The notes beneath the pieces are model-generated. The model was not told the DNA's origin. It ran no database searches and was given only the letters and a program-made list of their open reading frames with translations. From NCBI GenBank assembly GCA_026122225.1, contig JANEZZ010002360.1:930001-994000 (forward strand): a stretch of DNA of 64,000 bases. Direction: 5' to 3'. This stretch comes from Heloderma charlesbogerti (taxonomy: Eukaryota > Chordata > Lepidosauria > Squamata > Helodermatidae). The position numbers and the translations under genes are program-made. Within the stretch, counting starts at the first letter, position 1, and each line of letters opens with the position of its first letter. This document shows positions 2,740-58,084 of the stretch, one piece after another.

Positions 2740-2774
<35 letters not shown>

Positions 2775-7526: not shown

Positions 7527-10500
7527 GTGAGTATGAACCAGAACTTCTGGGTTCTGGTTCTTGTTTCTGGAAGGAATATGTAGGCCTGGCTAGAGAAAGG
7601 CCAACAACCTCAATGGTTCCTGGAGGCAAAATGGGAATCAGAGAGCCAGGGAAATAATGTTCTTATAACAGCGTTCTGTGCACCTTGGTGTTCAGTCATG
7701 CCGGCCACATGACCACGGAAGCGTTTTCGGACAGCGCTGGTTCTTCGGCTTAGAAACGGGGATGAGCACCGCACCCTAGAGTCGGACACAACTGGTTGGG
7801 GACACCTTTACCTTTTTACCCAAGGCAAACTGGAAGAGTAGTAGGCAACAGTTTGAAGGCAGGGAGCCAAGAATTATGGGTTAGAAATGGAGGTGGGGAA
7901 AGGACCCAGGAGTTCTTTGGAAATGAGGAGATGGTGGGGAGCACTCCTGAGCAAAAGAGAGAGAGACAATGCATGGGTTACTTAGAGGCAGAAGGGTAAA
8001 CTTTGTATTTTTAGGTATACAAATTTGCATTTGTATACCGAGGACAAAGTATTAGCATTTGTCTGTTAGTGGCACAATATAATATCCAGCATTATATTGC
8101 ATGTAGCATCCATCTGATGAAGCAGTCTGTTGTTTATCAAAGATGGATAATAATCTATTTGAGTTCAAGTAAAAGGATGACTGTGCAGGACTACCTAAAA
8201 GTGGCATGTGGTCCAGGTGTTTTGAGAATTAAACTGGCTTTCCATTCCTCCCAGGAAAACTTGGCCATTGTAGTTCTGTGAGAGGGGGAGGGGATCTCTT
8301 GCACAGAATGCTCAGCTTTCGCCCCAAACTACAATTCTCAGGAAGCTTTGGAGGGAGCCTTGATCACTAAACTGGCATAGAGCCAATGTAAATCGCTAGT
8401 ACAGATACTCCTTGAGTGGTAATGAGGTTTAACATCTCACAGACATGCATGTTGTATGTGCCAGCTGTTCTGAAATCTATTTGTCTGCTCCACAAAGAGG
8501 AAGATAGAGTATGAATGGTGACACAGAAGGGCGCAATCCTATGCGGAGAGTTGACCGCCTCTGAACTCGGAGGTGGCTGACTGTCCAATGCAAGGTGGGT
8601 GGGGCACGGAGGGGATCCTCTCCTCTGCGCTCTGCCCTCCTTGCATTTGGGCTTGTCAGAGTGGGGTGGGGGGAGGCTGGACAGCATGTAGGAGCCAGGG
8701 ATGAGCTGCGGCAGGGGAGGAGACAGGGAGTGATGTTTCTGGGTACCCAGCTCGGAGCCCTGGCTCGAAACCCAGAAACCAAAAAAATACTATGGCCTTC
8801 TAGACACTGTCTAGCACCTAGAGGACTGCACCCTAAATGTCCGAAATAAACAAGAAGTTTGGAAATTGTACCTTTCTTACCATGCAAAAGTTCTAGGCCA
8901 GACTCATCATCCCCTTCAACAACTGTTCTCCCTTGGGTGACTTGGCTGGAAATAATGGCAGGTTTTTTCCACACTGTAATGGTATTCAGTATTGTTATAC
9001 ATCCATTCAATAACTTTGCTCTGACATTTGCAAAATGATGAAAGCAGAATTTTCTATTAGAAGTAGGGATGTCGAAGAATTTCTCCACGAATCTCCGGGA
9101 GGCCGAATGCCAACGCATTCGGCCCCCCAAAATTGGTGGAGAAACGGTCTGCCACCCCCCCGCCACCCCCCCCGGGATGGGACTTACTTTTGTTGAATGT
9201 CCCTGGCGCTGGCGGCTCCCAGCGGTGGTGCGGCGGCAGTGGCCGGTCTTTCAACCAACTGCTGCCACTGCCATTTCCAAGTTGGAAAACAGCAACAACA
9301 ACAAACGTGATAGGCTACGTAAAGATTTACGTAGCCTATCATGGCTAGATTTTCAAAAAACACCGTGATTGGCTACGTAAATAGGCTTATCGCTATTTGC
9401 ATTGCCCTTATTTTCACCGTAGTCTACGTAAATGTTTATGTAGACTACACGTGCCCAAATAAGGAACGCAAATGGTGGCGCCCATGGGCACCGCCATTTG
9501 CGTACGCGCTTTTTTTCTTTTTTTCCCAAAGTCAGCCGTGATAGGCTACATAAGGATTTAAGTAGCCTATCACGGCTGACTGCAGGGACGCAAACAGCGG
9601 CGGCTATGGCCACCGCCATTTGCATCCTGGCAGGAGACGAGATACGCAGCCGAGGAGACGGGGCGCTCCCCCCCAGCCAGAATTTCAGCAGGAAGGGATG
9701 AGGTGCCTCCCCTCCGGCCAGAATTTCGGCGGGGAGGGACGGGGCGCCTCCCCCCCTGCGAAGAATTTTGGGGGAAGAAACGGAGTGCCTCCCCCCACCG
9801 CGAAGCAAGCTGCAGGACCAGGTAAGGGACTTTCGTCCATCCCTAAAATTTGTTTTGCATCACATTGGAAAACAACAACACCCTAACCCTTCTGGATGAC
9901 CTCAGGCTGCAGTTGGAAACATGCTTCCTAGAGCGTTATCAATGGAATAATGATGGGAATATTTCTGTGGAAAAGGAAATAAATGCTGGTTTTATCTGTG
10001 AAGTTTTGTGAGACCTATGGAGGCGGCACTGTGGAATTTCAACCCTTTCCCTGTCTGCAGTGGCACCGTTGAGATGTAAAACATGTTTTGGCTGTGGAGA
10101 ACAATGTAGACCTGAAGACGTGAGGACTGAGGTGTGCAAAGCGGGTCAAGATGCTTGCCTTGTCTATGTTTTCAATACAACAATACGTGAGTGGGCTTTC
10201 AGTCCCTTTAACATATTTAAGGTCTTAGTTAAGGAAATTAAGAAAATCCAGGAATCAGCATGATGGCTGCATAAACATTTCTTACCAGATGTGAGAGAAA
10301 GATGAAAGAGAAAGATTCTTACCAGATGTGAGAGAAAGATGAAAGAGAAAGATTCTTACCAGATGTGAGCTTTTCTTACCAGATGTGAGAGAAAATGTAA
10401 CATAAATTCGAGATTCACTAAAAGAAATGCAGTTGATAAAGCTGACACTAAAATGAGTAAGCAAGAGAGCTCACTGGACAGTCAGCATTGCTGTTTGAAT

Positions 10501-25689: not shown

Positions 25690-26351
25690 GAAGAGGCGCT
25701 TGACACCACATTAGTGGAGCCTCTCTAAATTACAGTGTTAAACTGGCTTTACTGTCTTCCCAGGAAACCTTGGGCACTGTAGTTCTCTGGGAGGAGTCGG
25801 AGAGCTGTGGCACAGAACGTTCAGCCTTTACACCGAACTACAATTCCCAGGAAGCTTTGGAGGGAGCCTTGATCAATAAACTGGCATAAAGCCAATGTAA
25901 ATCGATAGTACAGATATTCCTTGAGAGGTAATGAAGTTTAACATCTCACAGACATGTATGTTGCATGTGCCAGCTGTTCTGAAATCTATTCGTCTGCTCC
26001 ACAAAGAGGAAGATAGAGTATGAATGGTGATACATAAGGGCACAATCCTATGGGGAGAGTTGACCGCCTCTGAACTCAGAGGTGGCTGACTGTCCAATGC
26101 AAGGTGGGTGGGGCACGGAGGGGATCCTCTCCTCTGCGCTCTGCCCTCCTTGCATTTGGGCTTGTTAGAGTAGGGTGGGGGGAGGCTGGATAGCACGTAG
26201 GATCCAGGGATGAACTGCGGCAGGGGAGGGGATGGGGAATGAGGTTTCTGGGTACTGAGCTCGTAGCCCTGGCTTCGACCTTGGTTCCCAGAAACCAAAA
26301 AAATACTATGGCCTCCTAGTCACTCTCTAGCACCTTGAGGATTGCACCCTC
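25690..26351 (+). pseudogene. detached intron-1 segment of the PLI-gamma-like family
   Basis: 25740-26350 matches intron 1 of copy A at 8230-8835 (AAACTGGC...CCCAGGAA, AATCGATAGTACAGATAT, GACTGTCCAATGCAAGGTGG). No exon 2 follows; the match stops where a PAT element begins. Confidence 0.7.
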
Positions 26352-27267
26352 ATTTGCGTGGCTGCCTTTACCGTGACAGGCTACGTAAATACTTACGTAG
26401 CCTATCACGGCAAAGGGCCGGGGCGCAAATGGCATAGTGGCCACCTGTCAGGGTGGACACTGAGTCCATAGAATCCCAGAGTAGTTCTGATTCTGAGGAA
26501 GAGCAGTCACTCCTGGGAGAGGAGCGCGCTCCTCTTTCCCAGGGCCAACAGCTGACGGAGATTCCTCCCACCAGCATTCCTAGCTTAGATAGCAGTCCGG
26601 GGAGTGACCGAGCACAGATAGCAGACTTGGTGGACGCGCGACGCCGATGCAGAGAGCGGCGCCAGATGGAGGGCGCGGAAAGGAGGCCTAGTGCCCGGTT
26701 GGTGCGCAAACAACGGCTGCGCCCAGAGGATCCAAGGGAAAAGGGGAGGGACTCTCCCTAGTCCTTAAGTTCAGGGGTCTGCCGGTAATTCCCTTTCAAA
26801 CGGGGACCAACTGTTCCAACTTAGGGCATAGGTACCATGCTGCTCAGATCTAGTTGCAAACGGTATAGTTGTTAAGTTGTAAAAGAAGAATAAAGCTTTG
26901 AAAGGAATCCCTTTGTCTGTGTCTGGACTTGGCTACTGGATTAGACTAAGAGAGGCCTCCAAGGAGCCCTTGACACCACCATTTGCATACCTGCTCTTTG
27001 CCGTGATAGACTATGTAAATACTTACACAGCCTATCACAGCTGACTGCAAGGATGCACATGGAGGCCACTACGACGGCCACCATTTGCAGCTGCAGCAGC
27101 CCGGCTGCGGCCAGAACTCCAGCTGCAGCCAGCCCCGGTCGGCAGGTCCGTGGAGCTGCCGTGGAGCGGAGCGGGTCCGGGGAGAATTCCAGGGGGAGGG
27201 ATGGAGCGCCTCCCCACCACCGCCGATGCCCCGGAACAGATGGGTGAGTAGTATTCGTACATCCCTA
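26352..27267. mobile_element. PAT palindrome element split by a solo LTR, left end lost
   Basis: Palindromes at 26372-26411 (CGTGACAGGCTACGTAAAT and its inverse) and about 27000-27042, with a right end GTACATCCCTA at 27267. LTR-2 (26446-26975) sits between GGCCACC and CCACCATTTGC. The left terminus is missing at the junction with the intron-1 segment. Confidence 0.8.
26446..26975 (+). mobile_element. solo LTR (LTR-2)
   Basis: 530 bp, TGTCAGGGTGGACAC...GAGCCCTTGACA, with target duplication CCACC at 26441-26445 and 26976-26980. AATAAAGCTTTGAAA lies at about 26889. The frame at 26453-26761 (Ser/Glu-rich, then REKGRDSP at the end) is shared with LTR-1. Insertion into a PAT dates it after that PAT. 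Confidence 0.88.
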
Positions 27268-27905: not shown

Positions 27906-28636
27906 TAGGGATGTACGAAAGTCCCCTTACCTGGCTCCGCCGGGTTCCACTGGGGGGGGGGAGGCGCTCCGTCCCTCCCCCCGGAATCCTTGCCGGGGGG
28001 GGGAGGCACTCTGTGCCTCCTGCCCGGAATCCTGGCTGGCCGTCTCCGCTCCGCGGCCGTAGCTGCTGCCGTTTGTGTCCCTGTAGTCAGCCATGATAAG
28101 CTATGTAAAGACTTATGTAGCCTATCACGTCTGGCTTAAAAAACAAAACAAAAACGCACGTATGCAAATGGCGGTGGCTACAGCCGCCGCCATTTGCATT
28201 CCTTATTTTTGGCCGTCTTAGTCTACATAAATATTTACGTAGACTAAGACGGCCAAAAATAAGGAATGCAAATGGCGGTGGCCGTAGCTGCCGCCCTTTG
28301 TGTACGCGTTTTGTTTTGTTTCTTTTTAAGCCAGACATGATAGGCTACGTAAGTCTTTACGTAGCCTATCACGTCTTGTTAAAAAACAACAACAACAAAG
28401 CGACAAGACTGCAAATGGCGGCGGCGGAAGCCGGTCGGAACACCAGCCGCCGCCACCACCGCCGCAGCCACCGCCAGAGCCGCCGCCACCCGGAAGATCT
28501 GCCCCAGGTAAGTCTCATCCCGGGGGGGATCCGTGGGGTGGCAGGGGGTTAACAGGCCATTCCGCCACAGATTTCGGTGGAATGCACTGGCATTCAGCCT
28601 CACCGAGATCTGTGGCGGAATTCTCTGCCATCGCTA
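27906..28636. mobile_element. PAT palindrome element
   Basis: 731 bp with a perfect duplication GTGATCAC (27898-27905, 28637-28644). The left end is TAGGGATGTACGAAAGTCCC CTTACC; the right end is the terminal-hairpin type ending CATCGCTA. Palindromes at about 28091-28130, 28213-28253 and 28336-28376; GCAAATGGCGGTGG/GCCGCCGCCATTTGC pairs between them; donor match CCCCAG|GTAAGT near 28508. Confidence 0.92.
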
Positions 28637-30175: not shown

Positions 30176-30183
30176 TGTTTCAC

Positions 30184-31058
30184 TAGGGATGTACGAAAGG
30201 TACTTACCTTTCATGGATTATGTTTATGGTTGGGGGGGAGGCGTTCCGTCCCTCCCCCTGGAATCCTCGCCAGGGGGGATGCGCTCCGTTCCTCCCCCCC
30301 TGGGAATCCTGGCCAGCCAGCTGTGCTCCACAGGGATTCTGCGGAGCTACCAGCCGGCTCCACCAGCAGCCGGACATCCGTAGCCGCCTCCGTTTGCGTC
30401 CCTGCAGTCAGCCGTGATAGGCTACGTAAATGTTTATGTAGCCTATCATGGCTGACTAAAAAGAAAAAAAAATGCACATGTGCAAATTTGCGTTCCTTAT
30501 TTTGGCACGTTAAGATTAGTTTGGCACGACTAAGATGGCGAAAATAAGGGGAACGCAAATAGCGTAGACGCTACGCTATTTGAGTTCCCCTTATTTTCGC
30601 CGTCTTAGTCTACGTAAATGTTTACGCAGACTAAGACATGCCAAAATAAGGAACGCAAATGGCGGCGGCCATGGCCGCCACCATTTGCGTACGCATCTGT
30701 TTTTTTTTTCTTTTAAGTCAGCCGTGATAGGCTACGTAAAGATTTACGTAGCCTATCACGGGTTATTTTTTAAAATGTAGCCGTGATAGGCTACATAAAT
30801 CTTTACGTAGCCTATCACTTTTTTTTTTTAAACTGGAAATGGCGGCAGTGGCAGCCGGTCGGAAGACTGGCCGCCGCCGCCGCTGAACCGCCGCCAGAGC
30901 CGCCGCTGGAGCTGCTGCCACCAGGAAGATCTGCCCAAGGTAAGTCTCATCCCGGGGGGTGGCGGGGGAGCAGTCCATTTTGCCACCGATTTCGGGGGGG
31001 CGAATGCACTGGCATTCGGCCTCCCCGAGATCTGTGGCGAAATTTTCATACATCCCTA
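30184..31058. mobile_element. PAT palindrome element, best-preserved example
   Basis: 875 bp with a perfect duplication TGTTTCAC (30176-30183, 31059-31066). From left: TAGGGATGTACGAAAGG..CTTACC end; G-rich pyrimidine/purine arms; palindromes at about 30412-30452, 30543-30605 (AAGGGGAACGCAAATAGCGT and inverse), 30607-30638, 30650-30697 (GGAACGCAAATGGCGGC and inverse), 30722-30761 and 30781-30820; a GC-rich block; donor match CAAG|GTAAGT at about 30940; a terminal hairpin (CGAATGCACTGGCATTCG) and CATACATCCCTA. Confidence 0.94.
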
Positions 31059-31969
31059 TGTTTCACTGCGACCAGAAATGGCGTCAGGAGAAACTGTCAG
31101 CAGTCTGGCCACCATTTTGCATTGTTTTCAATGCCCTGGACCAACCATCATCCCAGGACATGGGATGATGGTTGTTGTTGGAGGAGAATGACTGCAAATG
31201 GCATCCCATGTTAGCTGCCCCAGGCTCTAAAAGGTGTGCGTTTAGAGGATCCTGTCTCTTAAGCACACTCTTGCTTGTAAAAAGGAACGTATGGACTGGG
31301 GAGGTGGACCTTTGATTTCAGAGAGAAACCTCAGACAGAAAGATGCAAGGGAGGCAGTGGAAGGGGAAGCACATTTAGGCAAAAAGCCAGATAATCCAAG
31401 GGGATCTGATGCAAGAGAGATCATCAGGGCCCCCTGTAACTGTATTTTCTGAAATGCCAGTTTTCTCGTTCCATGAAAAGAAACATCTTTCAAAATAACT
31501 TTCTGTACAGTGGACTCCTGTCCATGAAAGGTTATTATGCCACAGTACATTTGTGTTTTGTGAGTCTTTAAGGTGCCACAAGGCTTTGTGGCCTTTGAGC
31601 ACAAAAGAGCAAGAGGCCCATCCTCCTCCCACAGCAATTCAGCTTTCTCTAGCATAGCGCAAACCTTGATTCTGAGGAGACATATGAACCCACCAGAATC
31701 TGGCCACATGGATCACACAAAATGCAGGTGCACTCCACGTGACCTGAGAGCAGCCGATACGCCTGCTCTTCCCCTCCTCAGGGCCTCGCGGCCTACAATG
31801 GCCCAAGCCACGAGTGCAATTGCCCAGGACCAATTGGCTAGGCAGGCCTCTGCAGAGTCAGGCACACTCCGAGACTCTGAGGTTTGGTGCTGTTACTTAA
31901 TTGTGGACTCTGGAGTTAATGAAAATAATGAGCACACTGTGGAAGGGAAGCTGGCAGCCTCCCCTCTGG
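31059..31969. other. unassigned sequence upstream of copy B
   Basis: Part of it (31500-31590) contains TGAGTCTTTAAGGTGCCACA, a motif I associate with a widespread amniote repeat but cannot classify. From about 31970 on it is the conserved upstream region of the gene family. Confidence 0.4.
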
Positions 31970-32413: not shown

Positions 32414-35400
32414 GTGAGTATTTCATTGCATTTATTATATTTCTATACTGCTCCATAGATGAAGCTCTTTATGAACCAGATGTTCTGTGTTCTTCTTGTT
32501 TCTGGAAGGAATATTTAGGGCTGGCTCGAGATAAGCCAAGAACTTGTATGGTTCCTGAAGGCAAAATGGGAATCAGAGAGCCAGGAAAATAGTGTTCTTA
32601 TACCCAAGGGAAACTGGAAGAGTAGTAGGCAACAGTTTGAGGGCAGGGAGCCAAGAATTATGGGTTGGAAATGGAGGTGGGGAAAGGATCCAGGAGTTCT
32701 TTGGAAATAAGGAAGAGGGTGGGGAGTGCTTCCTAGCAGGAGAGAGAGAGAGAGAGAGAGAGAATGGATGTGTTACTTAGAGGTAGTAGGTAAATTTCGT
32801 AGTTTTAGGTCAGCTTCAGCATTTGTCTATTAGTGGCACAATATAATATACAGCATTAAATTGCATGTACCATCCATCTGATGAAGAAGTCTGTTGCTTA
32901 GCAAAGGTCAGGTATAAGAATTGATCTGAGTTGGAGTAAAGGAATGACAATGCAGGACTACCTAGAAGTGGAATGCCATCTAGGTGTTTTGAGAATTAAA
33001 CTGGCTTTCCATTCATAGAATCATAGAATAGTAGGGTTGGAAGGGGCCTACAAGGCCATCAAGTCCAACCCCCTGCTCAATGCAGGAATCCAAATCAGAG
33101 CATCCCTGAGAGATGGCTGTCCAGCCTTGTCTTGAATGCCTCCAGTGTGGGAGAGCCCACCACCTTCCTAGGTCATTGGTTCCACTGTTGTGTTGCTCTA
33201 ACAGTCAGGAAGTCCTGATGATCAGCTGGAATCTGGCTTCCTGTCTCTTGAGCCCATTATGCCATGTCCTGCACTCTGGGATGATCAAGAAGAGATCCTG
33301 GCCTTCCTCTCTGTGACAACCTTTCAAGTACTTGAAGAGCACTATCATGTGTCCCCTCAGTCTTCTCTTCTCAAGGCTAAACATGCCCAGTTCTTTCAGT
33401 CTCTCCTCATAGGGCTTTGTTTTCAGTCCCCTGATCATCTTTGTTGCCCTCCTCTGAACCCACTCCAGTTTGTCTGCATCCTTATTAAAATGTGGTGCCC
33501 AGAACTGGACACAGTACTCCAGATGAGGCCTAACCAGTGATGAGTAGAGGGGAACTAGGACTTCCCGGGATTTGGAAGCTATGCTTCTATTAATGCAGCT
33601 CAAAAGAGCACTGGCCTTTTTTGCAGCCACATCACACTGTTGGCTCATATTCAGCTTGTGATCGACAACAATTCCAAGATCCTTCTCACTTGTAGTGTTG
33701 TTGAGCCACGTATCCCCCGTCTTGAAACTGTGCATTTGGTTTCTTTTTCCTAGGTGCAGAACTTGGCATTTATCCCTATTAAATGTCATTCTGTTGTTTT
33801 CTGCCCAGCACTCCAGTCTATCAAAATCACTTTGAATTTTGTTTCTGTCTTCCAAAGTATTGGCTATCCCTCCCAATTTTGTGTCATCTGCAAATTTTAT
33901 CAGCATTCCCTGCACCTCCTCCTCCAAGTCATTAATACAAATGTTGAAGAGCACTGGGCCCAGGACTGAGCCTTGCAGTACCCCACTCGTTACCTCTCCC
34001 CAGTTTGAGAAGATCCCATTGATAAGCACTCTTTGAGTCCGATTCTGTAGCCAACTGTGGATCCACCGGAATGTTGTTTCATCTAGCCTACTTTGAGCTA
34101 GTTTGCTCATCAGGATATCATGGGGCACTTTGTCGAAAGCTTTGCTGAAGTCGAGGTATATTCCCACAGTCCACAATGGAGGTTACTTGATCAAAACATG
34201 AGATCAGATTCGTCTGGCAGTATTTGTTCTTGACAAATCCATGTTGGCTTCAAGTAATCACTGCATTGTTTTCATGGTGCTTCCAGATGGATTGCTTTAT
34301 AATATGCTCCTGAATTTTCCCAGGGATTGATGTCAGACTGACTGGTCTGTAGTTCCCAGGTTCCTCCTTTTTACCCTTTTTGAAGAAAGGGACAACATTA
34401 GCCCTCCTCCAGTCATCTGGCCCTTCACCCGTCCTCCATGATTTCTCAAAGAGAATAGACAGCAGTTCTGAGAGTTCTTCTGCCAGTTCCTTTCTTACTC
34501 TAGGATGCAGTTCATCTAGCCCTGGAGATTTGAACTCATTCAAAGTAATGAGGTGTTCCTTGACCATATGCCTATCGATCTCAAGCTGCAATCCTGCCCC
34601 TTCAACCTGTACTTCGCCTTTGTCAGGGGGCTCATAGACCCTCTTTGGGGACAAGACTGAGCCAAAGTAGGAATTGAGCACCTCTGCCTTTTCTTTCTCA
34701 TCTGTTATCATTTTGCCATCCTTATTTAACAGCTGAACCACCATTTCTTTCCTCTGTCTTTTTGTTGCTTTTAGCCTCCCTCGCTAGTGGTGTACGAAAC
34801 TCCACTTACCTGGCTCCACTGGGGTCCGCAGGTGGGGGGAGGTGATCCATTCCTCCCAACGGAATCCTCGACGGGGGGGAGGCGATCCATTCCCCCCCCC
34901 CCCAGAATCCTGCCTGGTCGACTCCGATCTGCAGGCAGTCCACGGAGCTGCTGACCAGGCCAACCCTCAGCGGGACCTCCACCCACTGCTGGGTTGCTGC
35001 GGACGCAAATGGCATCCTGCATACGGGATGCCATTTGCCTCCCTATGCTAGCCCGTGATAGCAGGGGCACAAATGGTGTTGTTGTTGTTCAGTCGTTCAG
35101 TCATGTCCGACTCTTCGTGACCCCATGGACCATAGCACGCCAGGCCTTCCTGTCCTGCACTCTCTCCCGGAGTGTGCTCAAGTTCATATTCATTGCATCG
35201 GTGATGCTATCTAGCCATCTCATCCTCTGCCGTCCCCTTCTCCTTTTGCCTTCAGTCTTTCCCAGCATCAGGGTCTTTTCCAGGGAGTTTTCTCTTTGCA
35301 TTAGGTGGCCAAAATATTGGAGCTTCAGCTTCAGTATCTGTCCTTCCAATGAGCACTCGGCGTTGATTTCCTTTAGGATTGACTGATTGGACCTCCTTGC

Positions 35401-38400
35401 AGTCCAGGGGACTCATAAGAGTCTTCTCCAGCACCACAGATCGAAAGCATCAATTCCTCGTCGCTCAGCCTTCCTTATAGTCCAGCTCTCACAGCCATAC
35501 ATTACTATTGGGAAAACCATAGCTTTGATTAGACACACCTTTGTCAGCAAGGTGATGTCTCTGCTTCTTACTATGCTGTCTAGGTTTGCCATAGCTTTCC
35601 TCCCAAGGAGCAAGCGTCTTTTAATTTCATGGCTACAGTCACCATCTGCGGTGATCTTGGAGCCCAAGAAAGTAAAATCTGTCACTGCTTCCATTTCTTC
35701 CGCTTCATGGCCAGGAAGTGATGGGGCCAGATGCCATGATCTTTGTTTTTTTAATGTTGAGTTTCAAACCAGCTTTTGCACTCTCCTCTTTCACCCTCAA
35801 CAAGAGGCTCTTGAGATCCTCGTCGCTTTCTGCCATTATGGTGGTATCGTCTGCATATCGGAGGTTGTTGATAATTCTCCTGGCAATCTTAATTCCGACC
35901 TGCGATTCATCCACCCCGGCGTTTCTCATGATGTACTCTGCATATAAGTTAAATAAGCAGGGTGACAATATGCAGCCTTGTCGTACTCCTTTCCCAATTT
36001 TGAACCACTCGGTTGTTCCATGTCTGGTTCTTACTGTTGCTTCTTGACCCTCGTACAGGTTTCTCAGGAGACAGGTAAGGTGGTCTGGTATTCCCATCAC
36101 TTTCAGAATTTGCCACAGTTTGTTGTGATCCACACAATCAAAGGCTTTAGCGTAGTCAATGAAGCAGAAATAGACGTTTTTCTGGAATTCTCTTGCTTTC
36201 TCCATGATCCAGTGAACCTTGGCGATTTGATCTCTAGTTCCTCTGCCTCTTCAAAACCCAGCTTGTACTTCCGGTAGTTCTCGGTTCGCATACTGCTGAA
36301 GCCTAGCTTGTATAGGGGTGGACGAAAGTCACTTACCTATCCTCGAAGCTTTTCGCGGTGGGGGGGAGGTGCTTCGTTGCTCCCCCCGTGAAGTTCAGGC
36401 TGGGGGGGGAGGCTTCCTGCCTCTCCCTGGCTGAAATTCAGGCCGGGGGGGAGGCGCCTCGCCTCGCCCGGCCGCGAACTAAACAGTTAAAAAAAAACAA
36501 AAAAAAAAACGCCCCCGTGATAGGCTACATGATGATTAACGTAGCCTATCACGGCTAGATCTGCAAAGCCAGCCGTGATAGGCTACGTAAATCGCCACGT
36601 AGCCTATCACGGGTGACTTAAAAAAAGAAGAAGCGTGTACGCAAATGGCGGCCCCCATAGGGAGCCGCCATTCGCGTTCCTTATTTGGTCGCTGTAGTCT
36701 ACGTAAATCTTTACGTAGACTACAGAGACCCAATAAGGAACGGGAATGGCGGCTCCCTATGGGGGCCGCCATTATCCGTATGCGCTTTTTTTTTTAAAGT
36801 CACCCGTGATAGGCTACGTGACGATTTATGTAGCCTATCACGGCTGACTTTGCAAATCTAGCCGTGATAGGCTACGTTAATCGTCACGTAGCCTATCACG
36901 GAGGCATTTTTTTTTTCCTTTTATTGGAATGGTGGCGGCGGCAGCCGGTCGAAAGATTGGCTGCCGCCCCCGCCCCTGACGAAGACCCGACGAACCGCTG
37001 GCCGGACCCGCCGCCGGGAGGGACATTCGGCAAAGGTAAGTCCCGTGCGGGGGGCGGGGTGTGTGTGGAGAATTTCTCCCCGAAACGTGTTCGGGGGGCC
37101 AAACACATTGGCGCTCGGCCCCCCGAAGTTTCGGGGAGAAATTCTCCGCGATCCCTAAGCTTGTAGGATTTTGAGCATCACCTTGCTGGCATGTGAAATG
37201 AGCACAATTGTGCGGTAGTTTGAACACTCTTTGGCATTGTCCTTCTTTGGAACTGGAATGTAAACTGACCTTTTCCAGTCTTGCGGCCATTGTTGATTGT
37301 TCCAAATTTGTTGGCATATTGAGTGCAGCACTTTAACAGCATCATCTTTTAGGATTTTAAATAGCTCAGCTGGAATACTGTCATCTCTGCTAGCTTTGTT
37401 GTTAGTAATGCTTCCTAAGGCCCACTTGACTTCACTCTCGAGGATGTCCAGCTCAAGTTCAGTGGCCGCACTATCATGGCTATCAGGGACATTCAGATCT
37501 TTCCTGTATAGTTCTTCTGTGTATTCTTGCCACCTCTTCTTAATCTCCTCTGCTTCTGTTAGGTCCCTGCCTTCTTTGTCCTTTATCATGCCCATCTTTG
37601 AACAAAACGTTCCCTTGAGATCTCTGATTTTCTTGAAGAGATCTCTAGTCTTTCCCATTCTGTTGTTTTCCTCGATTTCTTTGCATTGTTCATTTAAGAA
37701 GGCCTTCTTGTCTCTCCTTGCTGTTCTCTGGAACTTTGCATTCAGTTGGATATATCTTCCCCTTTCTCCCTTGCTTTTCACTTCCCTTCTTTCCTCAGCT
37801 ACTTGTAAAGCCTCATCAGACAGCCACTTGGCTTTCTTGCATTTCTTTTTCTTTGGGATGGATTTCGTTGCTGCCTCCTGAACAATGTTACGCACCTCCG
37901 TCCATAGTTCCTCAGGCACTCTGTCTATCAGGTCTAATCCCTGAAATCTATTCCTCACCTGCACTGTATATTCAGAAGGGATATGATTGAGGTCATACCT
38001 GAATGGTTTAGTGGTTTCCCCTACGTTCTTCAATTTCAGCTGAAATTTTGCAAGAAGCAGCTCATGATCTGAGCCACAGTCAGCTCCAGGTCTTGTTTTT
38101 ACTGACTGTATAGAACTTCTCCATCTTTGACTGCAAAGGACATAATCAATCTGATTTCGATATTGACCATCTGGTGATGTCCATGTGTAGAGTCATCTCT
38201 TGTGCTGTTGGAAAATAGTGTTTGCTATGATCAGCGTGTTCTCCTGGCAAAACTCTATTAGCTTTTGTCCTGCTTCATTTTGTGCACCAAGGCCATGCCT
38301 GCCTGTTATCCCAGTGATTTCTTGACTTCCTACTTTAGCATTCCAATCCCCTATGATGAAGAGGACATCTTTTTTTGGTGTTAGTTTTAGAAGATGTTGT

Positions 38401-41400
38401 AGGTCTTCATAGAGCCGTTCAACCTCAGCTTCTTCAGCCTCAGTGGTTGGGGCATAGACTTGAATTACTGTGATGTTGAATGGTTTGCCTTGGATTTGTA
38501 CTGAGATCATTCTATCGTTTTTAAGATTGTACCCCAGTACTGCTTTTCCTGCCCTTTTGTTGACTATGAGTGCTACTCCATTTCTTCTAAGGGATTCTTG
38601 CCCACAGTAGAAGATATGATGGTCCCCTGAATTAAATTCGCCCATGCCTGTCCATTTTAGTTCGCTGATTCCCAAGATGTCGATGTCCAGTCTTGCCATC
38701 TCATGTTTGACCACCTCTAGCTTACCTTAATTCATTGATCTGACATTCCAGGTTCCTAAACAACATTGTTCTTTACAGCATCGGATTTTCTTTCTACAAA
38801 TGGTGTAGGGGACACCATATGCGTCCCTGCTTTAGCCATGATTAGGGATGGCAGAGAATTCTGCCACAGATTTCAGTGAGGCTGAATGCACTGTCATTTG
38901 ACCCCCCAAAACCCATGGCGGAATGGCCCCCCACCCCTGCCCCCCGCAGAATCCCCCCCAGGATGAAAGCTTACCTGGGGCGGATGTTCCAGTGGCGGCA
39001 GCTCCGGGAGTGGCTCCGGTGGCGGCTCCGGCAGCGGCAGCTGGTCTCTTGGCCGGCTGCTGCAGACTCAAATGGTGGCCACCACACCATTTGCATAGCT
39101 GCCTTTGCTGTGATAGGCTACGTAAAAACTTATGTAGCCTATCACGGCAAGCAAAAAACAAACAAACTGCGTGTGCAAATGATGGCGGCTATAGCAGCCG
39201 CCATTTGCGTTCCCTTTTTTTAGCTGTTTTAGCCTACGTAAATATTTAAGCAAGTTATTACAGCGAAAAAAAGGGAACACAAATAGCATATTGGGCACTA
39301 TTTGCGTTGCTTTTTTTCCCTGCCGTAGTAGCTTACGTAAATATTTACGTAGGCTAAAACAGCGAAAAAAAGGAATGCAAACGGCGGCCGCTGTAGCTGC
39401 CGCCATTTCCGTAAGTGGGGTTTTTTTTGCGGAAGGCTGCCCAGCAGCTGGCTGTCCAGCTGCGGGCGGCCCCGGCCAGTGGGTCTGTGGAATCTCCGCA
39501 GAGCGGAGGTGGCCAAATCAGGGTTTCAGGGGCAGGAGCAGAGTGCCTCCCCCCCACTGCGACTCACCCCGTCAAAAAGGTAAGTGACTTTTGTACATCC
39601 CTAGTCGTGATAGGCTATGTAAATATATATGTAGCCTATCATGGGCTAGTGTAGGGACGCAAATGGCGGCCACTACAATGGCTGTCATGTGCAGCCGCAG
39701 AAGCCCGGCAGCGGCCGGAGCTGCCGCCGCCCCTTCAATCGCCGCCAGAGGCACCACCGGAGCCGCCACCGCATCTGCCACCAGGTAGGTCCATCCTGGG
39801 GGGATTCCATGGGGTGGCAGTGGGGAGGGAGGCTGTTCTGCCACAGACTCCGGGGGCCCGGATTCTAAAGAATCTGGCCTCACTGAAGTCCGTGGCAGAA
39901 TTTTCCACCATCCCTACCCCCGCTAACCTCAGCTAGGGATGTATGAAACTCACTTACCTTTACGCAGATTGATTCGCAGTGGGGGGGGGAGGCACTCCAT
40001 CCCTCCCCCCGGAATCCTCAACGGTGGGGAGGTGATCCGGTCCTTCCCCCCGGAATCCTGCCTGGCCGGCTCCGCTCCACGGTGGCTCTGTGGAGCAGCC
40101 AGCCAGGGCCGTCCACAGCCAGATTTCCATCCGGAGACGGGCTGGTGCTGGCCGTAGCGGCCACCATTTGCATCCAGCCAGGCTGCCTTGAAAGGCTACG
40201 TACCTATTTACGTAGCCTATCATGGCTAACCCCCCCCCAAAAAACAACCAGCATACACAAATGGCGACGTCTATGGCGACCCCTATTTGCATTCCCTATT
40301 TTTCACCGTTCTAGCCTATGTAAATATTTATGTAGGCTATTATGGCGAAAAAAATGGGAATGCAAATAGCGTAGTGGGCACTATTTGCATTCCTTTTTCC
40401 CCCCACATTCCAGCCTACGTAAATATTTATGTAGGCTAGCACGGCAGGAAAAAAAGGAACACAAATAGCGCCCACTACGCTATTTGCGTTCCCCTTTTTT
40501 CACCTTAATAGCCTACGTAAATATTTACGTAGGCTGGAATGGTGAAAAATAGGGAACGCAAATGGCGGCCGCCGTAGCTGCCGCCATTTGCGTATGTTGT
40601 TTTTTTTCGGGGGGGGGGTAGCCATGATAGGCTACGTAAATACTTACATAGCCTACCACAGCTGCAAGGACGGCAATGGCGGCTGCAGCAGCCCGGCTGC
40701 AGCTGGCCAGGAGACCAGCCGCCAGAGCCGCCGCCGCCAGAGCCTCCGCATCCACCCCAGGTAAGTTCCGTCCTGGGGGGATTCCATGGGGGGGGGCAGG
40801 AGGCTGTTCTGCCACGGATTCTGGGGGGCTGGATTCTTTACAGGTTATATCCGGGGGGCCGGATTCTTTAGAGGATGGCAGAGAATTCTGCCATGGATTC
40901 CAGTGAGGCCAGATTCTTTAGAATCCGGCCTCACTGGAATCCCTGGTGGAATTCTCTGCCATCCCTAACCTCTGCTTGTTCTCAGCTTTAGCCTTCCTGA
41001 TGCCATCCCTGCAATTCTGTGCTACCTGCCTGTACTCTTCCTTCGTTGCTTGACCTTCTTTCCACTTCCTATATGTGTCCTTGTTGTTGTTGTTGTTGTT
41101 TTGCAGGTCATCTCTAAGCTTTTTGTGAAGCCACATTGGCTTCTTCTGCTGTCTTCCACCTTTTCTTCTTGTTGGAATTGTTTGTAATCCTGCCTTGAGA
41201 ATTTCCTTTTTTAAAAGCTCCCACCCATCTTGGACTCCTTTTCTCATTAGAGTCGCTTGCCATGGGACCTTACTTAGCATTGTTCTGAGTTGATTAAAAT
41301 CAGCTTTCCTAAAATCCAGGGTACGCATTTGACTACACTTGGCTTTTGCTTCCTTTAGAACCAAGAACTGAAGTATAACATGGTTGCTTTCCCACAGAGT

Positions 41401-44400
41401 TCCTGTAACTGCTACTTTATCCACTAAGTCATCTCTGATGGTTAGGAGCAAGTCAAGGATAGCCAATCCTCTAGTTCCTTCCTCTACTTTCTGTAGGAGG
41501 AAGTTATCTGGCACACAAGTCAGGAATTTCCTGGAGGGGCCATGGTTTGCAGAATTTGTCTCCCAACAAATTTTGGGGAAATTGAAGTCCCCCATTACTA
41601 CTACATCATGCTCCCTTGAAACATGGGCTATTTGCTTTTCAAAAGTTTCATCCTTGTCTTCTCCATGATTGGGTGGCCGGTAGTAGACTCCGACCACCAG
41701 GTTCCTTTTATTCTTTGCTCCATTTATTTTGATCCAGATGCTCTTGATGGGGCTACCAAGCTCATCCTCCTGTATTTCTGTGTGGAGATATGTATTTTTC
41801 ACATACAGTGCAACCCCACCTTCCTTTCTGTTCCTCCTGTTCTTTTTGAACAAGTTATATCCTTCAATTGCTGTATTCCAGTCATGAGAGTCATCCCACC
41901 AAGTCTCAGTTATACCTATCAAGTCATAATTAGGGGTGCACGAAAGTCACTTACCTGGTCTCGCAGCTTTTCGCGGTGGGGGGGAGGCGCTTCGCTGCTC
42001 CCCCCGCGAAGTTCAGGCCAGGGGGGGAGGCTTCCTGCCTCGCCCGGCCGAAATTCAGGCTGGGGGGGAGGCTTCCCGCCTCGCCCGGCTGAAATTCAGG
42101 CCGGGGAGGAGGCGCCTCGCCTCACCCGGCCGCGAAATTAAAAGTAAAAAAACAAACAAAAACGCCCCCGTGATAGGCTACATGACGATTAACGTAGCCT
42201 ATCATGGCTAGATCTGCAAAGCCAGCCGTGATAGGCTACGTTAATCGTCACGTAGCCTATCACGGGTGACTTTGAAAAAAAAAAAAAGCGCGTACGCAAA
42301 TGGCGGCCCCCATAGGGAGCCGCCATTTGCGTTCCTTATTTGGTCGCTGTAGTCTACGTAAATCTTTACGTAGACTACGGCGAAAATAAGGGCAACACAA
42401 ATAGCATTGCCCTTATTTTCGCCGTAGTCTACGTAATCTTTACGTAGACTTCAGCGACCAAATAAGGAACGGGAATGGCGGCTCCATATGGGGGCCGCCA
42501 TTATCCGTACACTCTTTTTTTTTTTTTAAAGTCACCCGTGATAGGCTACGTGACGATTTACGTAGACTATCACAGCTGACTTTGCAAATCTAGCCGTGAT
42601 AGGCTACGTTAATCGTCACGTAGCCTATCACGGGGGCGTTTTTTTTTTTTTTATTGGAATGGCGGCGGCGGCAGCCTGTCGAAAGACCGTCTACCGCTCC
42701 CGCCCCGGACGAAGACCCGACGAACCGCCGGCTGGACCCGCCGCCGGGAGGGACATTCGGCAAAGGTAAGTCCCATCCTGGGGGGGGGGGTGCAGGGGGC
42801 TGTGGGGTGCGGAGAATTTCTCCCTGAAACTTGTTCGGGGGGCCGAACACGTTGGCGCTTGGCCCCCCAAAGTTTCGGGGAGAAATTCTCCGCCATACCT
42901 AGTCATAATTTCCCTCCTGTATTAAGAGTTCAAGCTCATTCTGTTTGTTTCCCATACTCTGGGCATTAGTATATAGACATCAAAGACCAGGTGCTTCATA
43001 GTCTGGCTTTCTTCCTACATTTGACTGAAGACCATTATCGGGTGCTATTAGAGCTGCTCTCTCCGTTGCAGTGTATGAGCCTTTGTCCACTGTTACCCCC
43101 AACTTTACATCTCCCTTCCCCGTAGGATTCAGGTTAAAGCCCTCCTGATGAAGTTCTTCATGCTGTGTCCAAACACATCCTTCCCAGGTTTTGTGAGGTG
43201 AAACCCATCCCTTGCAACAGCCTATCTTCCAGGAAGTGTAGCCCATAGTCCCAGAATCCAAATGTCTCACGCCGGCACCACCTTTGTAGCCAGTCATTCA
43301 CCCGGAGTATTTTTCTTTCCCTTTCTATCCCTCTTCTACCTACTGGAAGGATGGATGAGAGAACTATCTGTGTCCCAAAGTTCTTGCGTTTCCTTCACAA
43401 AGCTTCAAAGTCTGACATGATTTCTTCATAGCTCCGCTTGGCAGTATCATTTGTTCCTAACAGATGAGAAGAAAGGGATACCTGTCAGTGGGCTTCATGA
43501 GTGCAGGCAAGCTGCAAAAAAATTTCCTGACTGAAAAACTTCCTGACGGTTAGAGCAATACGGCAATGGAACCAATGACCTTGGGAGGTGGTGGGCTCTC
43601 CCACACTGGAGGCATTCAAGATGAGGCTGGACAGCCATCTGTCAGGGGTGCTCTGACTTGCATTGAGCAGGGGGTTGGATTTGATGGCCTTGTAGGCTCC
43701 TTCCAACCCTACTATTCTATGATTCTATGATTCTAACCTTTCAGTCATGTCTCTAATCTGTCCTCCTGGGAGACAACATACCTGCAAAGTCCACAGTTCT
43801 TCCCGACATACTTGGGTCTTGATCCCACACAGCAAGGAGTCTCCCACTACTACCACTCTTCTCTTCTTGTTGTTGTAGGCCTGGGTTTCATCACCTCTGC
43901 TTGACTGACCTTCAGCCTAGGGATGGCGGAGAATTCCACCACGGATCTCGGTGAGACCGAATGCCAGTGCATTCAGCCCCCTGAAACCTGTGGCAGAATG
44001 AAGCCCGCTCCCCCCCACCCCGCGAAAGGCGCGCGAAACAGAGCACTCACCTGCTGCCGTTCGCCCTGCTCTGCGAATGGCGGGTGCATCTGCGGCCACC
44101 ATTTGCTTCACAATTTTAGCCGTGATAGGCTATGTAAATACTAGGGATGTACGAAAGTCACTTACCTGGTCTCACAGCTTGCTTTGTGGTGGGGGTGAGG
44201 CACTTCGCTTCTCCCCCCGAAGTTCAGGCCGGGGGGGGAGGCTTCCCGCCTCGCCCGGCCGAAATTCAGGCTGGGGGGGAGGCTTCCCGCCTTGCCCGGC
44301 CGAAATTCAGGCTGCGGAGAAGCGCCCCGTCTCCCCGGCTGCGAACTTCAAAAGAAAAGTAAAAAAAAAAGCCCCGTGATAGGCTACGTAACGATTAACG

Positions 44401-47400
44401 TAGCCTATCATGGCTGACTTTGCAAATCTAGCCATGATAGGCTACGTTAATCGTTACGTAGCCTATCACAGGGGCGTTGTTTTTTTTTTTTTACTTTTCT
44501 TGTAATGGCGGTGGCGGCAGCCGGTCGAAAGACCGGCTGCCGCCCCTGCCCCTGACGAAGACCTGCCGAACCGCCGCTGGGACCCGCCGCCGGGAGGGAC
44601 ATTCATGAAAGGTAAGTCCCATCCCGGGGGGGTGGGGGGGGTGGAGAATTTCTCCCCGAACAACCTTCGGAGGACCGAATGCGTTGGCGCTCGGCCCCCC
44701 AAAGTTTCTGGTAGAAATTTTCCCCCATCCCTAGTAAATACTTACATAGCCTATCACAGCTAATGCAGGGACGTCATCTGCATCCCTGTGGAGGCGGTGA
44801 TAGGATACATAAATCTTTATGTAGCCTATCACGGAAAAAAAAAAAAGGAATGCAAATGGCGGTGGCTACAATGGCCGCCATTTGCGTTCCTTTTTTTAGC
44901 CGTAATAGGCTATGTAAATATTTATGTAGCCTATCACAGCAAAAGCGGGGACGCAAATGGCGGATGCTACAGCATTTGCGTCCCTTCGCTGAGCCGTGAT
45001 TAGGGATGGCGGAGAATTTCTCCCCGAAACCTCGGGGGGCCGAGCGCCAATGTGTTCGGCCCCCCGAACAAGTTTCGGGGAGAAATCCTCCGCACCCCCC
45101 CGCCCCCCACAACCCCCCCGGGACGGGACTTACCTTCGCCGAATGTCCCTCCTGGCGGCGGGTCCGGCCGGCGGTTTGGCGGGTGTTCGAGTGGGCAATG
45201 CTATTTACGTAGACTACGGCAAAAATAAGGGCAATGCTATTTGCATTGCCCTTATTTTCGCCGTAGTCTACGTAAAGATTTACATAGACTACAGCGACTA
45301 AATAAGGAACGCGAATGGCGGCTCCCTATGGGGGCCGCCATTAGCGTACGCACTTTTTTTTTTTTAAAGTCACCTGTGATAGGCTACGTGACGATTAACG
45401 TAGCCTATCATGGCTGACTTTGCAGATCTAGCCGTGATAGGCTACGTTAATCGTCACGTAGCTTATCACGGGGGTGGTTTTATTTTTTTTAAAAGAACAA
45501 TGGAGTTTGTGGCCGGGTGAGGCGGGAAGCCTCCTCTCCGGCCTGAATTTCGGCCGGGCGAGGCGGGAAGCCTCCCCCCCTGGCCTGAACTTCGGCTGGG
45601 GCGAGGCGGGAAGCCTCCCCCCCTGGCCTGAACTTCGGCTGGGGCGAGGCGGGAAGCCTCCCCCCCTGGCCTGAACTTCGCGGGGGGAGCCGCGAAGCGC
45701 CTCCCCCCCACCGCGAACAAGCTTCGACGAAAGGTAAGTGCCTTTCGTCCACCCCTAGTCGTGATAGGCTACATAAATATTTACATCCAGATTGACTAAT
45801 CCCATTCAAGAACTGTTCTTTCTAGGGTGACTCGAGTGGAAATAATGGTAGATTTTATCTACACTGTAATGATTTACAATATTGTTATACATCCTTTAAA
45901 TAACCTTGCTTGGACATTTGCAAAATGATGACGGCAGAATTTGCAAGTAGGAGTAGTAAAAATTAGTGCTGTATCACATTGGAAAATAACAAAGTCTAAC
46001 ACTTCCAAATGACTTCAGGCTGCAATCTGAAACAGACTTCCTAGGGAGTTTTCAGTGGAATAATTATGGGTATATTTCTGGGGAAAAGGAAAGAAATGCT
46101 GGTCGTATTTGTGAAGATTTTGGAGACCTATGTAGGCGGCCCTGAGGAATTTCAACCCTTTCCCTGTCTGCAGTGGCACCTTTGAGATGTAAAACGTGTT
46201 TTGGCTGTGGCGAAAAATGCAGACCTCAAGATGTGAGGTCCGAGCAGTGCAAACCGGGTCAAGATGCTTGCCTTACCTTCATTCTTCATACAACAACAGG
46301 TGAGTGGGAAGTGCTTTCAGTCCATTTCACATATGTAAGATCTTATTTAAGGAAACTGAGAAAACGTAATAATCAGCATGATGGCCACGTAAGCATAAAT
46401 CATAAGCTTTTCTGTGGTTACATTCCTAGATGTGAGAGGAAATGTAACGTAAATTTGAGATTAGCTAAAAGAAATGCTGTTGATGAAGCTGACATTAAAA
46501 TGGCACAAGCAAGAGAGCTCACTGGATGGTGAGCATTGCCGCTTGAATAATAAGACTCTTCCACAACATCCTCCAGTACTCTACTTTTGTTTCATAATCT
46601 AAACTAAAACGTTCTAAGGCTAAAATCCTGTGCATGTTTAAAGAGAAAAAAGTCCTATAACTCCCAGTACTCCAAGCCTGGGTTCAACACAGTTCTTATT
46701 TGGAAATGGTTTTAAGACCCAGCTGCAGAAAGGAGACTTAGACCTATCTTCAGAACTGAGATTAAGGTTTGATCCAGTATATGCTTACCTGAGAGCAAGC
46801 ACAATGGACCTCAATGGTGCTTATAGCTGAGCAGACACGTGTACCTCTGCATGGTAAGTAAGGAGGGGTGAATCTGACCGTTCCACTTACTCATGGATTC
46901 AATTTTTAAAAAATCTTTCTCTCTCTCCTGAATATGAAGGACTTCACGCATTTTAGTAAATGCTTATCAAAAATGATCCAAAACAAGACTCTCATCCCTC
47001 TGCAACAGCCAAATTCAATAGGGACAGCTCTTCCCATCATGGAGAGGACCATGCTGTGGCTGTCTGCCATGTAGCTGTTAAAGAAGAGAAACCTGTCAGG
47101 TTTCTGACAAAACCCACTTTCCTTTCCATCCGGGTGTCTGGAGGTGGGGGCAGGCGATCTGTCCCTCCCCCTGGAATCCTGCCCAGCCAGCTCTGCTCCA
47201 CGGCGAGTCCACAGAGCCACTGGCCAGGGCTGCCCACAGCTGGACTTCTCTCTGCTGCCGGGCTGCGGCCGCAAATGGCATCCTGTGTAGGGGATGCCAT
47301 TTGCGTCCCTGCCCTTGGCTGTCATTGGCTATGTAAATATTTACGTAGCCTATCACGGCAAAGAGCAGGGACGCAAATGGCGTAGCGGGGAGATTAGCCA

Positions 47401-55190: not shown

Positions 55191-56142
55191 TAGGGATGGC
55201 GGAGAATTATGCCACAGATTTCAGTGAGGCCGAATGCACTGGCATTCGGCCCCCCGAAACCCATGGTGGAATGGCCTCCCACCCCCTGCCCCCCACGGAA
55301 ACCCCCCCCGGGACGAAGATTACCTGGGGCGGATGTTCTGGTGGTGGCGGCTCCAGCAGCGGCTCCAGCGGCAGCAGCTGGCCTCTTGGTCAGCTGCTGC
55401 GGACTCAAATGTCAGTTTTGAGTCCTATCACGGCAGCCTGACTGGAAGGAAATGGTGGCCGCTATGGTGGCTGACATTTGAGTCCGCAGCAGCTGGCCGC
55501 GCGGCCAGCTGCTGCCGCTGGAGCCGCTGCTGGAGCTACCAATAAGCATGTGTAGCCGCATGTGTAGCTGATGTGTAGCCGCAAAGGCAGCTACACAAAT
55601 GGCGTGGTGGCCACCATTTGTGTAGCTGCCTTTGCCGTGATAGGCTGTGTAAAGACTTACGTAGCCTATGACGGCAAGCTAAAAAAACAAACAAACAGCA
55701 TATGCAAATGGCGGCAGCTACGGCGGTAACCATTTGTGTTCCCTTTTTTTCGCTGTTTTAGCCTACGTAAATATTTACATAAGCTATTACGGCAAAAAAA
55801 AAGGGGAACACAAATAGTGGAGTGGGCGCTATTTGCATTCCTTCCCCCCCCCCCACCGTAATAGCTTACGTAAATATTTACGTAGGCTAAAACAGTGAAA
55901 AAAAGGGAACGCAAATGGCGGCCACTATAGCCACCACCATTTGCTTATGCTGTTTTTTTTGTTTTTTCCAGAAGGCTGCCCAGCGGCCAGATGTCCGTCT
56001 GCGGGCAGCCCCAGCCGGCAGCTCTGCAGAATCTCCGCGGAGCGGAGCCATCCGGATTAGGATTTCAGGGGGAGGTGCAGAGCGCCTCCCCCCCACCGCA
56101 AATCACCCCGTCGAAAAGGTAAGTGACTTTCGTACATTCCTA
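55191..56142. mobile_element. PAT palindrome element in the Penelope-like element
   Basis: 952 bp; duplication ATCTAAAT / GTCTAAAT (55183-55190, 56143-56150; 7 of 8). The left arm has an unusual inverted duplication of GCAGCAGCTGGCC-type sequence around 55370-55530; palindromes at about 55634-55672, 55752-55792 and 55855-55895. Confidence 0.9.
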
Positions 56143-56423: not shown

Positions 56424-56863
56424 TACGGATGGCAGAGAATTCTGCCACAGACTCCAATGAGGCCGGATTCTTAGAATCTGCCCCCCCCCCGGAGTCCGTG
56501 GTGGAATGGACCAACCAACCCTGCCACCCCGCGAAGTCTGCCCCATCTGGATCCTACCTGGCACCACCAGGTCCAGGTCTGGCCGGGTTCATCCACTGGC
56601 AGTCTTCGGAAGCATATTGTGTCCGGCATTGCGGACACCATTTCCTTCCGTGCTCTTTGCCATGATAGGCTACGTAAATCTTTACATAGCCTATCATGGC
56701 AAACAGCACGGACACAAATGGCATCCGCTATGCCAGATGTCATTTGCATCCGCAGACCGGCAGCGGATGGAAGTCCACCAGCGGCCAGCAAGGATTCTGG
56801 GGGGGAGGGAAGGATCGCCTCCCCCCCTGCAGACCCCAGGTAAGGGGGTTTTGCACATTCCTA
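56424..56863. mobile_element. PAT palindrome element in the Penelope-like element
   Basis: 440 bp, one of the shortest complete copies; perfect duplication ATTGTGAG (56416-56423, 56864-56871). A single palindrome (56660-56700) flanked by paired CAAATGGCATCC / GGATG..CATTTGCATCC blocks; donor CCCCAG|GTAAGG at 56839. Confidence 0.93.
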
Positions 56864-57367: not shown

Positions 57368-58084
57368 TAGGGATAGACAAAAGTCCCTTACCTGATCCCG
57401 ATGCTTGCTTCACGGTGGGAGGGAGGCGTTCCGTCCCTCCCCCCCAAATTCTGGCTGGGGGGGAGGCTCCCCGTCCCTTCCCGCCAAAATTCTGGCCGGG
57501 GGGGAAGCACCCCGTCCCTCCCTGCCGAAATTCTGGCCGGGGGGGAGATGCCCCGTCCCGCCGGCTGCAAAACCTCGTCTCCTGCTGGGACGCAAATGGC
57601 GGCGGCCATAGCTACCGCCGTTTGTGTCCCTGCAGTCAGCCGTGATAGACTACGTAAATGTTTACATAGCCTATCACGGCTGACTTAAAAAAAAAAAAGC
57701 TTGTATGCAAACAAGCTTGTATTACATAGACTACACGTGCCAAAATAAGGAACGCAAATGGCGGCGCCCATGGGCACCGCCATTTGCGTATGCACTTTTT
57801 TTTTTTAAAGTCAGCTGTGATAGGCTACGTAAATCTTTATGTAGCCTATCACGTTTGTTTGTTTGTTTGTTTGTTTCACTTGGAAGTGGCGGCGGTGGCA
57901 GCCGGTCGGAAGACTGGCCACCGCCGCCGCCAGAGCCGCTGCCGCCGCCAGGGACATTCGAGCAAGGTAAGTCCCGTCCCGGGGGGGGGGGGGAGGCAGA
58001 CGGTTTCTCCACCAATTTCGGGGGGCCGAATGCGCTGGCATTCTGCCTCCCCGAGATTTGTGGAGAAATTCTCTGACATCCCTA
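57368..58084. mobile_element. PAT palindrome element
   Basis: 717 bp, TAGGGATAGACAAAAG...GACATCCCTA. End sequences match 9064-9845 in reverse orientation. Flanking 8-mers (CTAGTATC / CTTCTGTA) do not match and the two sides belong to different sequences (Penelope-like on the left only), so a rearrangement probably occurred. Confidence 0.85.

Follow-up and report, generated by a model that had tools for sequence, protein, structure and literature searches.

The palindrome-bearing repeats of this locus raise three questions: what they are, how they came to carry strings of palindromes, and whether the palindromes serve the elements that contain them. The window, that is, the whole 64-kb stretch of Heloderma charlesbogerti DNA that was analysed, contains 43 near-perfect palindromes with arms of at least 14 bp, whereas none appeared in any of five order-2 Markov controls; of the 43, at least two (29437-29501 and 31142-31174) lie outside the family described below. 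The explanation that we consider best, with a probability of about 0.72, is a nonautonomous Ac-like hAT family that is moved in trans, whose alternating array arose by inverted duplication and in which one palindrome type, designated A, is a cis-acting site.

Sixteen copies (440-1034 bp) can be traced from one terminus to the other, and seven others (c01, c09, c12, c20, c21, c22, and c23) are partial. Together they cover ~24% of the window, the limits of the partial copies being approximate. The family termini are TAGGGATG.../...CATCCCTA; TAGGGATG occurs 15 times in 64 kb, compared with ~1 occurrence expected from the base composition, and CATCCCTA occurs 13 times. We take TAGGGATG to resemble the Ac end. 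The named copy, c06, has the termini TAGGGATGTACGAAA and TTTCATACATCCCTA and is flanked by a perfectly matched duplication of 8 bp, TGTTTCAC; its terminal inverted repeat (TIR) is 15 bp long and 93% complementary, and the ends of several other copies are less alike. The copies have diverged from one another: an unaltered CCGTGATAGGCTACGTAAAT is present in the window twice on the plus strand and three times as the reverse complement. They can be aligned at their ends and internally too, a point on which the earlier note had allowed for failure, and its estimate of about twenty copies with shared ends agrees with our census.

Target-site duplications (TSDs) of 8 bp with 0-2 mismatches flank 14 of the 16 end-to-end copies (eight perfect, five with one mismatch, and one with two), as the hAT assignment of the earlier note implied. 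Two end-to-end copies, c04 and c17, have no recognised TSD, their flanks differing by seven and four mismatches, respectively. No perfect flank match of 6, 7, 9, or 10 bp was found around the 16 copies, and mispaired flanks agreed with two or fewer mismatches in 6 of 240 control pairs. In the orientation of the element, position 2 of the TSD is T in 8/14 cases, and position 7 is A in 10/14 cases in one duplicate and in 8/14 in the other. The TSDs thus resemble nTnnnnAn, as a preference and not a strict rule; this consensus is given for Hermes and hobo (PMC10368747; PMC8961557). The assignment of the copies to a nonautonomous, Ac-like hAT (MITE-like) family is well supported by the TAGGGATG ends and the TSDs. 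A simple tandem repeat or satellite is ruled out because the copies possess ends and 8-bp duplications. The coordinates of the copies and of the features of c06 are collected in the table.

Table. Copies of the palindrome-bearing family in the window and features of the named copy c06
Feature	Position	Strand	Remarks
c01	644..1059	+	left end not recognised; start approximate
c02	1677..2129	-	perfect TSD
c03	2583..3238	-	TSD with 1 mismatch
c04	9064..9845	-	ends recognised; no TSD, 7 mismatches
c21, partial	26300..27267	-	left end 27267; other limit approximate
c05	27906..28636	+	perfect TSD GTGATCAC
c06, named copy, 875 bp	30184..31058	+	ends and perfect TSD
c06 left TSD TGTTTCAC	30176..30183	.	
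c06 conserved left-end block, TIR and ACTTACCT; family consensus TAGGGATGTACGAAAGTCACTTACCT	30184..30209	+	distance 0.14-0.16 vs 0.42 in next 34 nt, 16 copies
c06 subterminal ~41-bp GC-rich direct repeat	30233..30316	+	
c06 A-type palindrome	30406..30457	.	
c06 long B-type palindrome	30528..30610	.	arms 40 bp
c06 D-type palindrome	30599..30640	.	shared TACGTAAAT core
c06 B-type palindrome GCAAATGGCGGC...	30653..30690	.	
c06 A-type palindrome	30722..30761	.	inside best-conserved stretch of the element
c06 A-type palindrome	30783..30818	.	
c06 right outward 5' splice-site motif AAGGTAAGT	30937..30945	+	
c06 right terminal inverted repeat	31044..31058	-	
c06 right TSD TGTTTCAC	31059..31066	.	
c22, fragment	34800..35045	+	limits approximate
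c07	36313..37157	+	core 90% self-inverse over 416 bp
c08, within A palindrome of c09	38843..39603	-	TSD with 2 mismatches
c09, right part, interrupted by c08	39604..39916	+	
c10	39934..40967	+	TSD with 1 mismatch
c11, six palindromes	41931..42901	+	core 89% self-inverse over 486 bp
c12, with c13 and c14 both within its palindromes	43918..45780	-	limit approximate
c13	44142..44733	+	perfect TSD
c14	45001..45757	-	TSD with 1 mismatch
c23, fragment	47146..47390	+	limits approximate
c15	55191..56142	-	TSD with 1 mismatch
c16, shortest, one palindrome	56424..56863	-	perfect TSD
c17	57368..58084	+	ends recognised; TSD not, 4 mismatches
c18	58379..59101	-	perfect TSD
c19	60625..61350	-	TSD with 1 mismatch
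c20	63067..63420	+	right end not found; limit approximate

The element starts on the left with a conserved 26-bp block (family consensus TAGGGATGTACGAAAGTCACTTACCT), which in many copies is followed by GC-rich direct repeats of ~41 bp; next come the palindrome core and a region rich in GC, and a GTAAGT motif then precedes the right end. The number of ~40-bp palindromes per copy ranges from one (c16) to six (c11), in agreement with the previously described string of near-perfect ~40-nt palindromes, one to at least five or six per copy. Half-units make up the core, arranged as <B<H H>B> <B<H H>B>, with A and D as variants of H; the centre of the H-half junction is 2 nt, and that of the B-half is usually 10 or 3 nt. 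The array is therefore a ~65-bp unit in strictly alternating orientation, with the core TACGTAAAT on one side of the unit and GCAAATGGCGGC on the other, and every junction is a palindrome centre. All three alternating kinds of palindrome that had been listed are present, but they reduce to two junction kinds of one unit, the B palindromes (GCAAATGGCGGC..., AAGGGGAACGCAAATAGCG...) being the other junction. The suggested hairpin-forming potential was borne out when each copy was folded: the z-scores of c06 are -23.7 as DNA and -29.9 as RNA (20 shuffles each), and each of the other 15 copies folds below the mean of its five Markov controls. The palindrome count relative to the controls and the folding of c06 exclude chance palindromes.

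Two modes of array growth make different predictions: after direct tandem duplication, the left arm of a palindrome should resemble the left arm of its neighbour, whereas after inverted duplication, left should resemble right. Among 29 pairs of neighbouring palindromes, the inverted match is better in 20, the direct match in eight, and one is a tie (Wilcoxon p 0.003, sign test p 0.036; being related by descent, the pairs are not independent, so these values are generous). Six of the 16 cores are self-inverse, with fractions of the alignment length of 0.90 (c07), 0.89 (c11), 0.90 (c13), 0.83 (c16), 0.81 (c10), and 0.76 (c05), compared with 0.45-0.48 in the controls. The c06 core is intermediate (0.62), and nine of the 16 cores are as a whole at or near the control level (0.42-0.57 versus 0.45-0.49); in these nine, the symmetry is local or cut by deletions. 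Since neighbours match better inverted than direct, the array has probably grown by fold-back inverted duplication. This conclusion is reasonably supported by the comparison of arms, although only six of the 16 cores are mirror-symmetric throughout. Direct tandem growth is disfavoured, though eight of the 29 pairs favour it.

The corresponding 100-bp dimers of c07 and c11 are 96% alike between the copies versus 92-93% within c11. The doubling in these copies consequently predates their split, and no duplication has been caught in progress. The arms of 40 A palindromes differ at 3.48 of 20 positions within a palindrome and at 3.43 when shuffled (3097 of 5000 permutations at or below), so maintenance of A-arm pairing is not visible. 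The arms of nine D palindromes are closer than shuffled ones (3.0 versus 4.5; 100 of 5000 permutations), a difference confounded by subfamily structure; six of 55 pairs were mixed and were excluded from both tests. Ongoing gene conversion between the arms is unsupported by the arm comparison and by the dimer identities within and between copies.

Conservation along the element is uneven. Averaged over all pairs of the 16 copies, the distance is 0.14 in the left 15 bp, 0.16 in bases 16-26, 0.42 in bases 27-60, and 0.41 in bases 60-110; on the right, it is 0.15 in the last 15 bp and 0.34-0.39 in the preceding 105 bp. When one palindrome is taken per copy, the distance is between 0.19 (rightmost) and 0.24 (leftmost) versus 0.48-0.51 in the flanks, but these palindromes were picked by likeness to the consensus, which selects for similarity, and two of the 'leftmost' picks are D-type. 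At least one A palindrome within five mismatches of the 40-nt consensus is present in 16/16 copies, including those of 440 and 453 bp. A profile with equal ascertainment was obtained by taking every fourth 26-mer of c06 and c17 and recording its highest identity to each of the remaining copies. The top 12 windows of c06 and of c17 all lie in A palindromes; the best reach a mean of 0.91 with 0.85 in the worst copy for c06, and 0.89 and 0.85 for c17. The element as a whole averages 0.70-0.71, and its left end scores 0.79-0.81. The multiplicity of A palindromes inflates the best-match identity somewhat; with the single-palindrome copy c16 included, the minimum is still 0.81-0.85. This profile places the A palindrome ahead of every other part of the element in conservation, the ends included, and for this reason the palindrome is probably a cis-acting site, which is the simplest way to account for its conservation.

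A site of this kind could be a transposase-binding site that has been amplified, as the earlier note proposed; copies with more docking points would then move better. The conservation of the A palindrome fits this proposal, and so does its placement: its distance from the left end is 139-287 bp in 16/16 copies, and 231-307 bp separate the rightmost palindrome from the right end in 14/16. In addition, a quasi-palindrome is the target of the Hermes BED domains, and as much as ~200 bp is required at hAT ends (PMC10368747). However, the Hermes BED motif AAGT/ACTT is not enriched in the copies (7.6 per kb versus 7.0 in three background stretches), and the shortest copies, c16 with one palindrome and c02 with one A-type palindrome, have perfect TSDs, so that one suffices. 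The proposal is thus not supported for sites of the Hermes type, whereas some cis role is favoured by the conservation, and the palindromes may contain a family-specific transposase-binding site. We regard the amplification of binding sites as the reason for the array as a tentative idea, more doubtful than probable.

The left block allows two readings of the same letters. AAGT stands at positions 14-17 in 10/16 copies and ACTT at positions 19-22 in 9/16, with both in 6/16, and these may be subterminal BED repeats: at the left end of Hermes, BED domains bind an AAGT/AAGC quasi-palindrome (STR1-STR2) at bases 15-23 (PMC10368747). The overlapping word CTTACC, found in 14/16 left ends and thus commoner than AAGT, gives GGTAAG, a 5' splice-site core, when read outward. 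A scan with a 5' splice-site matrix revealed 45 strong motifs in the window, 28 of them in 21 copies or fragments and 17 in the other 49.7 kb. All 28 are subterminal and face outward (15 left and 13 right, none inward or internal), where ~5 would be expected from the outside rate; the counts are related by descent. Examples are found at 30937, 37033, and 42763 (+) and at 30202, 36331, and 41949 (-). The right motif lies 94-209 bp from the terminus, and it is exactly AGGTAAGT in 11 of 19 right ends and a GT-bearing variant in seven, being lost in c02. The observed/expected CpG ratio is 0.81 in the copies and 0.24 outside.

These features could mark the element as a mobile, bidirectional, CpG-rich promoter cassette, with transcription starting in the palindromic core and leaving through the outward 5' splice sites. 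The uniform outward orientation of the motifs, the retention of CTTACC and of a GT-bearing motif in 18/19 right ends, and the CpG content all agree with this, but descent links the motif counts, the overlap with the hAT subterminal AAGT/ACTT pair could explain the conservation of the left motif, and the high CpG may reflect mere youth and GC-rich repeats. As judged from the letters of the copies, we consider such a cassette unlikely. Its extended form, a self-contained bidirectional promoter transposon in which the A unit would be a dimer-binding site between splice sites on both sides and the left splice motif would double as the transposase-binding block, seems very doubtful.

Three copies (c08, c13, and c14) are inserted in sibling copies, all in an A palindrome; two of these nested insertions occupy the identical palindrome position. 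Joining the flanks of c08 and of c13 restores an uninterrupted sibling palindrome, and joining those of c14 restores most of one, the sibling itself ending shortly beyond. Arrays might be made by copies that land in sibling palindromes and lose their inner ends by recombination. Insertion into sibling palindromes accounts for three of the 14 TSD-bearing insertions with a 3.6% target (P 0.013), but this statistic is post hoc, and nTnnnnAn sites are present in the palindromes. We find this route to the arrays quite improbable.

Maintenance of the palindromes for hairpin formation, as small-RNA precursors or DNA cruciforms, is highly unlikely: folding is very stable in 16/16 copies, but the pairing of the A arms is itself not visibly maintained, and no Rfam family was found at the palindromes in a gathering-score search. 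The replication hairpins once suggested are likewise not supported by the comparison of A arms, and the perfect 8-bp TSDs point to cut-and-paste.

No hAT transposase was found in the 10 ORFs scanned with Pfam out of the 109 listed in the window. Two of these ORFs match reverse transcriptase, three match LINE-type endonuclease (one below the cut-off), one has a marginal match to a phospholipase A2 inhibitor, and four match nothing; this set of domains is compatible with a squamate host without proving one. A translated stretch of one copy has no protein relative at E 0.001, a value that none of the 29 candidates of the search reached. No match to the family was found in phages, nor was its exact 17-mer found in viral contigs. 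The degenerate 17-mer occurs in at least 80 stretches of prokaryote genomes and in six of viral contigs; as relatives, these loci were rejected, since BLAST of the 16 copies gave only matches of 21-44 nt with E of 4e-4 or worse, which are taken as chance. The palindrome words of the family are absent from a body of 5.39 million open papers, and its end words were found only in papers whose titles are unrelated to transposons.

The window also contains other repeats. Fragments of non-LTR retrotransposons with reverse transcriptase or endonuclease domains are located at 33208-34182 (-), 19023-19781 (-), 40921-41946 (-), and 61882-62388 (+), and c11 and c20 appear to interrupt non-LTR retrotransposon sequence. 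A 5S rRNA-like sequence at 15775-15890 (-) scores 43.3 bits against an Rfam gathering threshold of 38 and lies in a twofold tandem with a period of ~170 bp (15720-16046); it is possibly a 5S-derived SINE. The beginning of the tandem unit is, we assume, like a CR1-type tail. Two long ORFs, 8367-8789 (-) and 25873-26319 (-), have closely similar translations and apparently belong to another dispersed repeat. The ORF at 46146-46529 (+), whose match to a phospholipase A2 inhibitor is marginal (PF02988, E 3e-4, 21.8 bits versus a cut-off of 22), is perhaps a host gene exon.

When the family is compared with known systems, Ac/Ds, hobo, and Hermes of the hAT Ac group are similar in their nTnnnnAn-like 8-bp TSDs and short TIRs, and the subterminal AAGT/ACTT pair is at 14-22 here and at 15-23 in Hermes (PMC10368747). 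Unlike these elements, the present family combines a large array of alternating inverted units with GC-rich repeats of ~41 bp, and no transposase was seen in the scanned ORFs. In Tol2, the palindrome AAGTACTT follows straight after the TIR, in the manner of AAGT/ACTT here; however, Tol2 is autonomous, and the text available from that source mentions no comparable array for it (PMC10368747). Mar, a hAT MITE of Drosophila, is likewise a small nonautonomous element, but it is assigned to the Buster group, and the word 'palindrome' is absent from the main text of its description (PMC3517528). Galileo and Foldback-like elements share structural growth by repeats and a palindromic target motif, whereas Galileo belongs to the P superfamily and has 7-8-bp duplications and very long TIRs (PMC4168063). 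In the present family, the TIR measures ~15 bp and the inverted repeats lie inside the element, with a terminal match of 15 bp in c06, and membership among Foldback/Galileo-like elements was rejected. The coral CMITEs also have an internal region conserved above their TIRs, but they are linked to piggyBac-like transposons (PMC2872659).

We return to a nonautonomous hAT family with an array that probably grew by inversion. The ends, the 8-bp TSDs, the palindromes recovered on joining the flanks of the nested copies, and the alternating units are its direct evidence. Its copies would probably be mobilised in trans by a transposase encoded elsewhere, and the terminal block with AAGT/ACTT is the expected binding place of a BED-type transposase domain. 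The conserved A palindrome near both ends may be a cis-acting site, for the transposase or a host factor, that is needed for movement, and the extra A palindromes may be tolerated by-products. Successive inverted duplications would enlarge the array of one ~65-bp unit, most simply when a short palindrome already present prompts fold-back template switching while the DNA is replicated or a gap is repaired; doubled array forms could then spread through transposition. Inverted duplication via single-stranded hairpins has been described in yeast (PMC7467729); by analogy, a similar process may apply to this array.

If the array does grow by fold-back duplication within a mobile element, the copies preserve in nature the history of how palindromes arise, with one-, two-, and six-palindrome stages coexisting in one window. 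A palindrome of 40 bp that is better conserved than the ends of its element offers a tangible candidate for a cis-site. Should the family already be present in a repeat library, the alternating-unit reading and the splice-site pattern would remain new. If the element were a bidirectional promoter, spliced transcripts could run from every insertion into the DNA on either side, and the family would, provided that the outward splice motifs are used, supply its host with new first exons.
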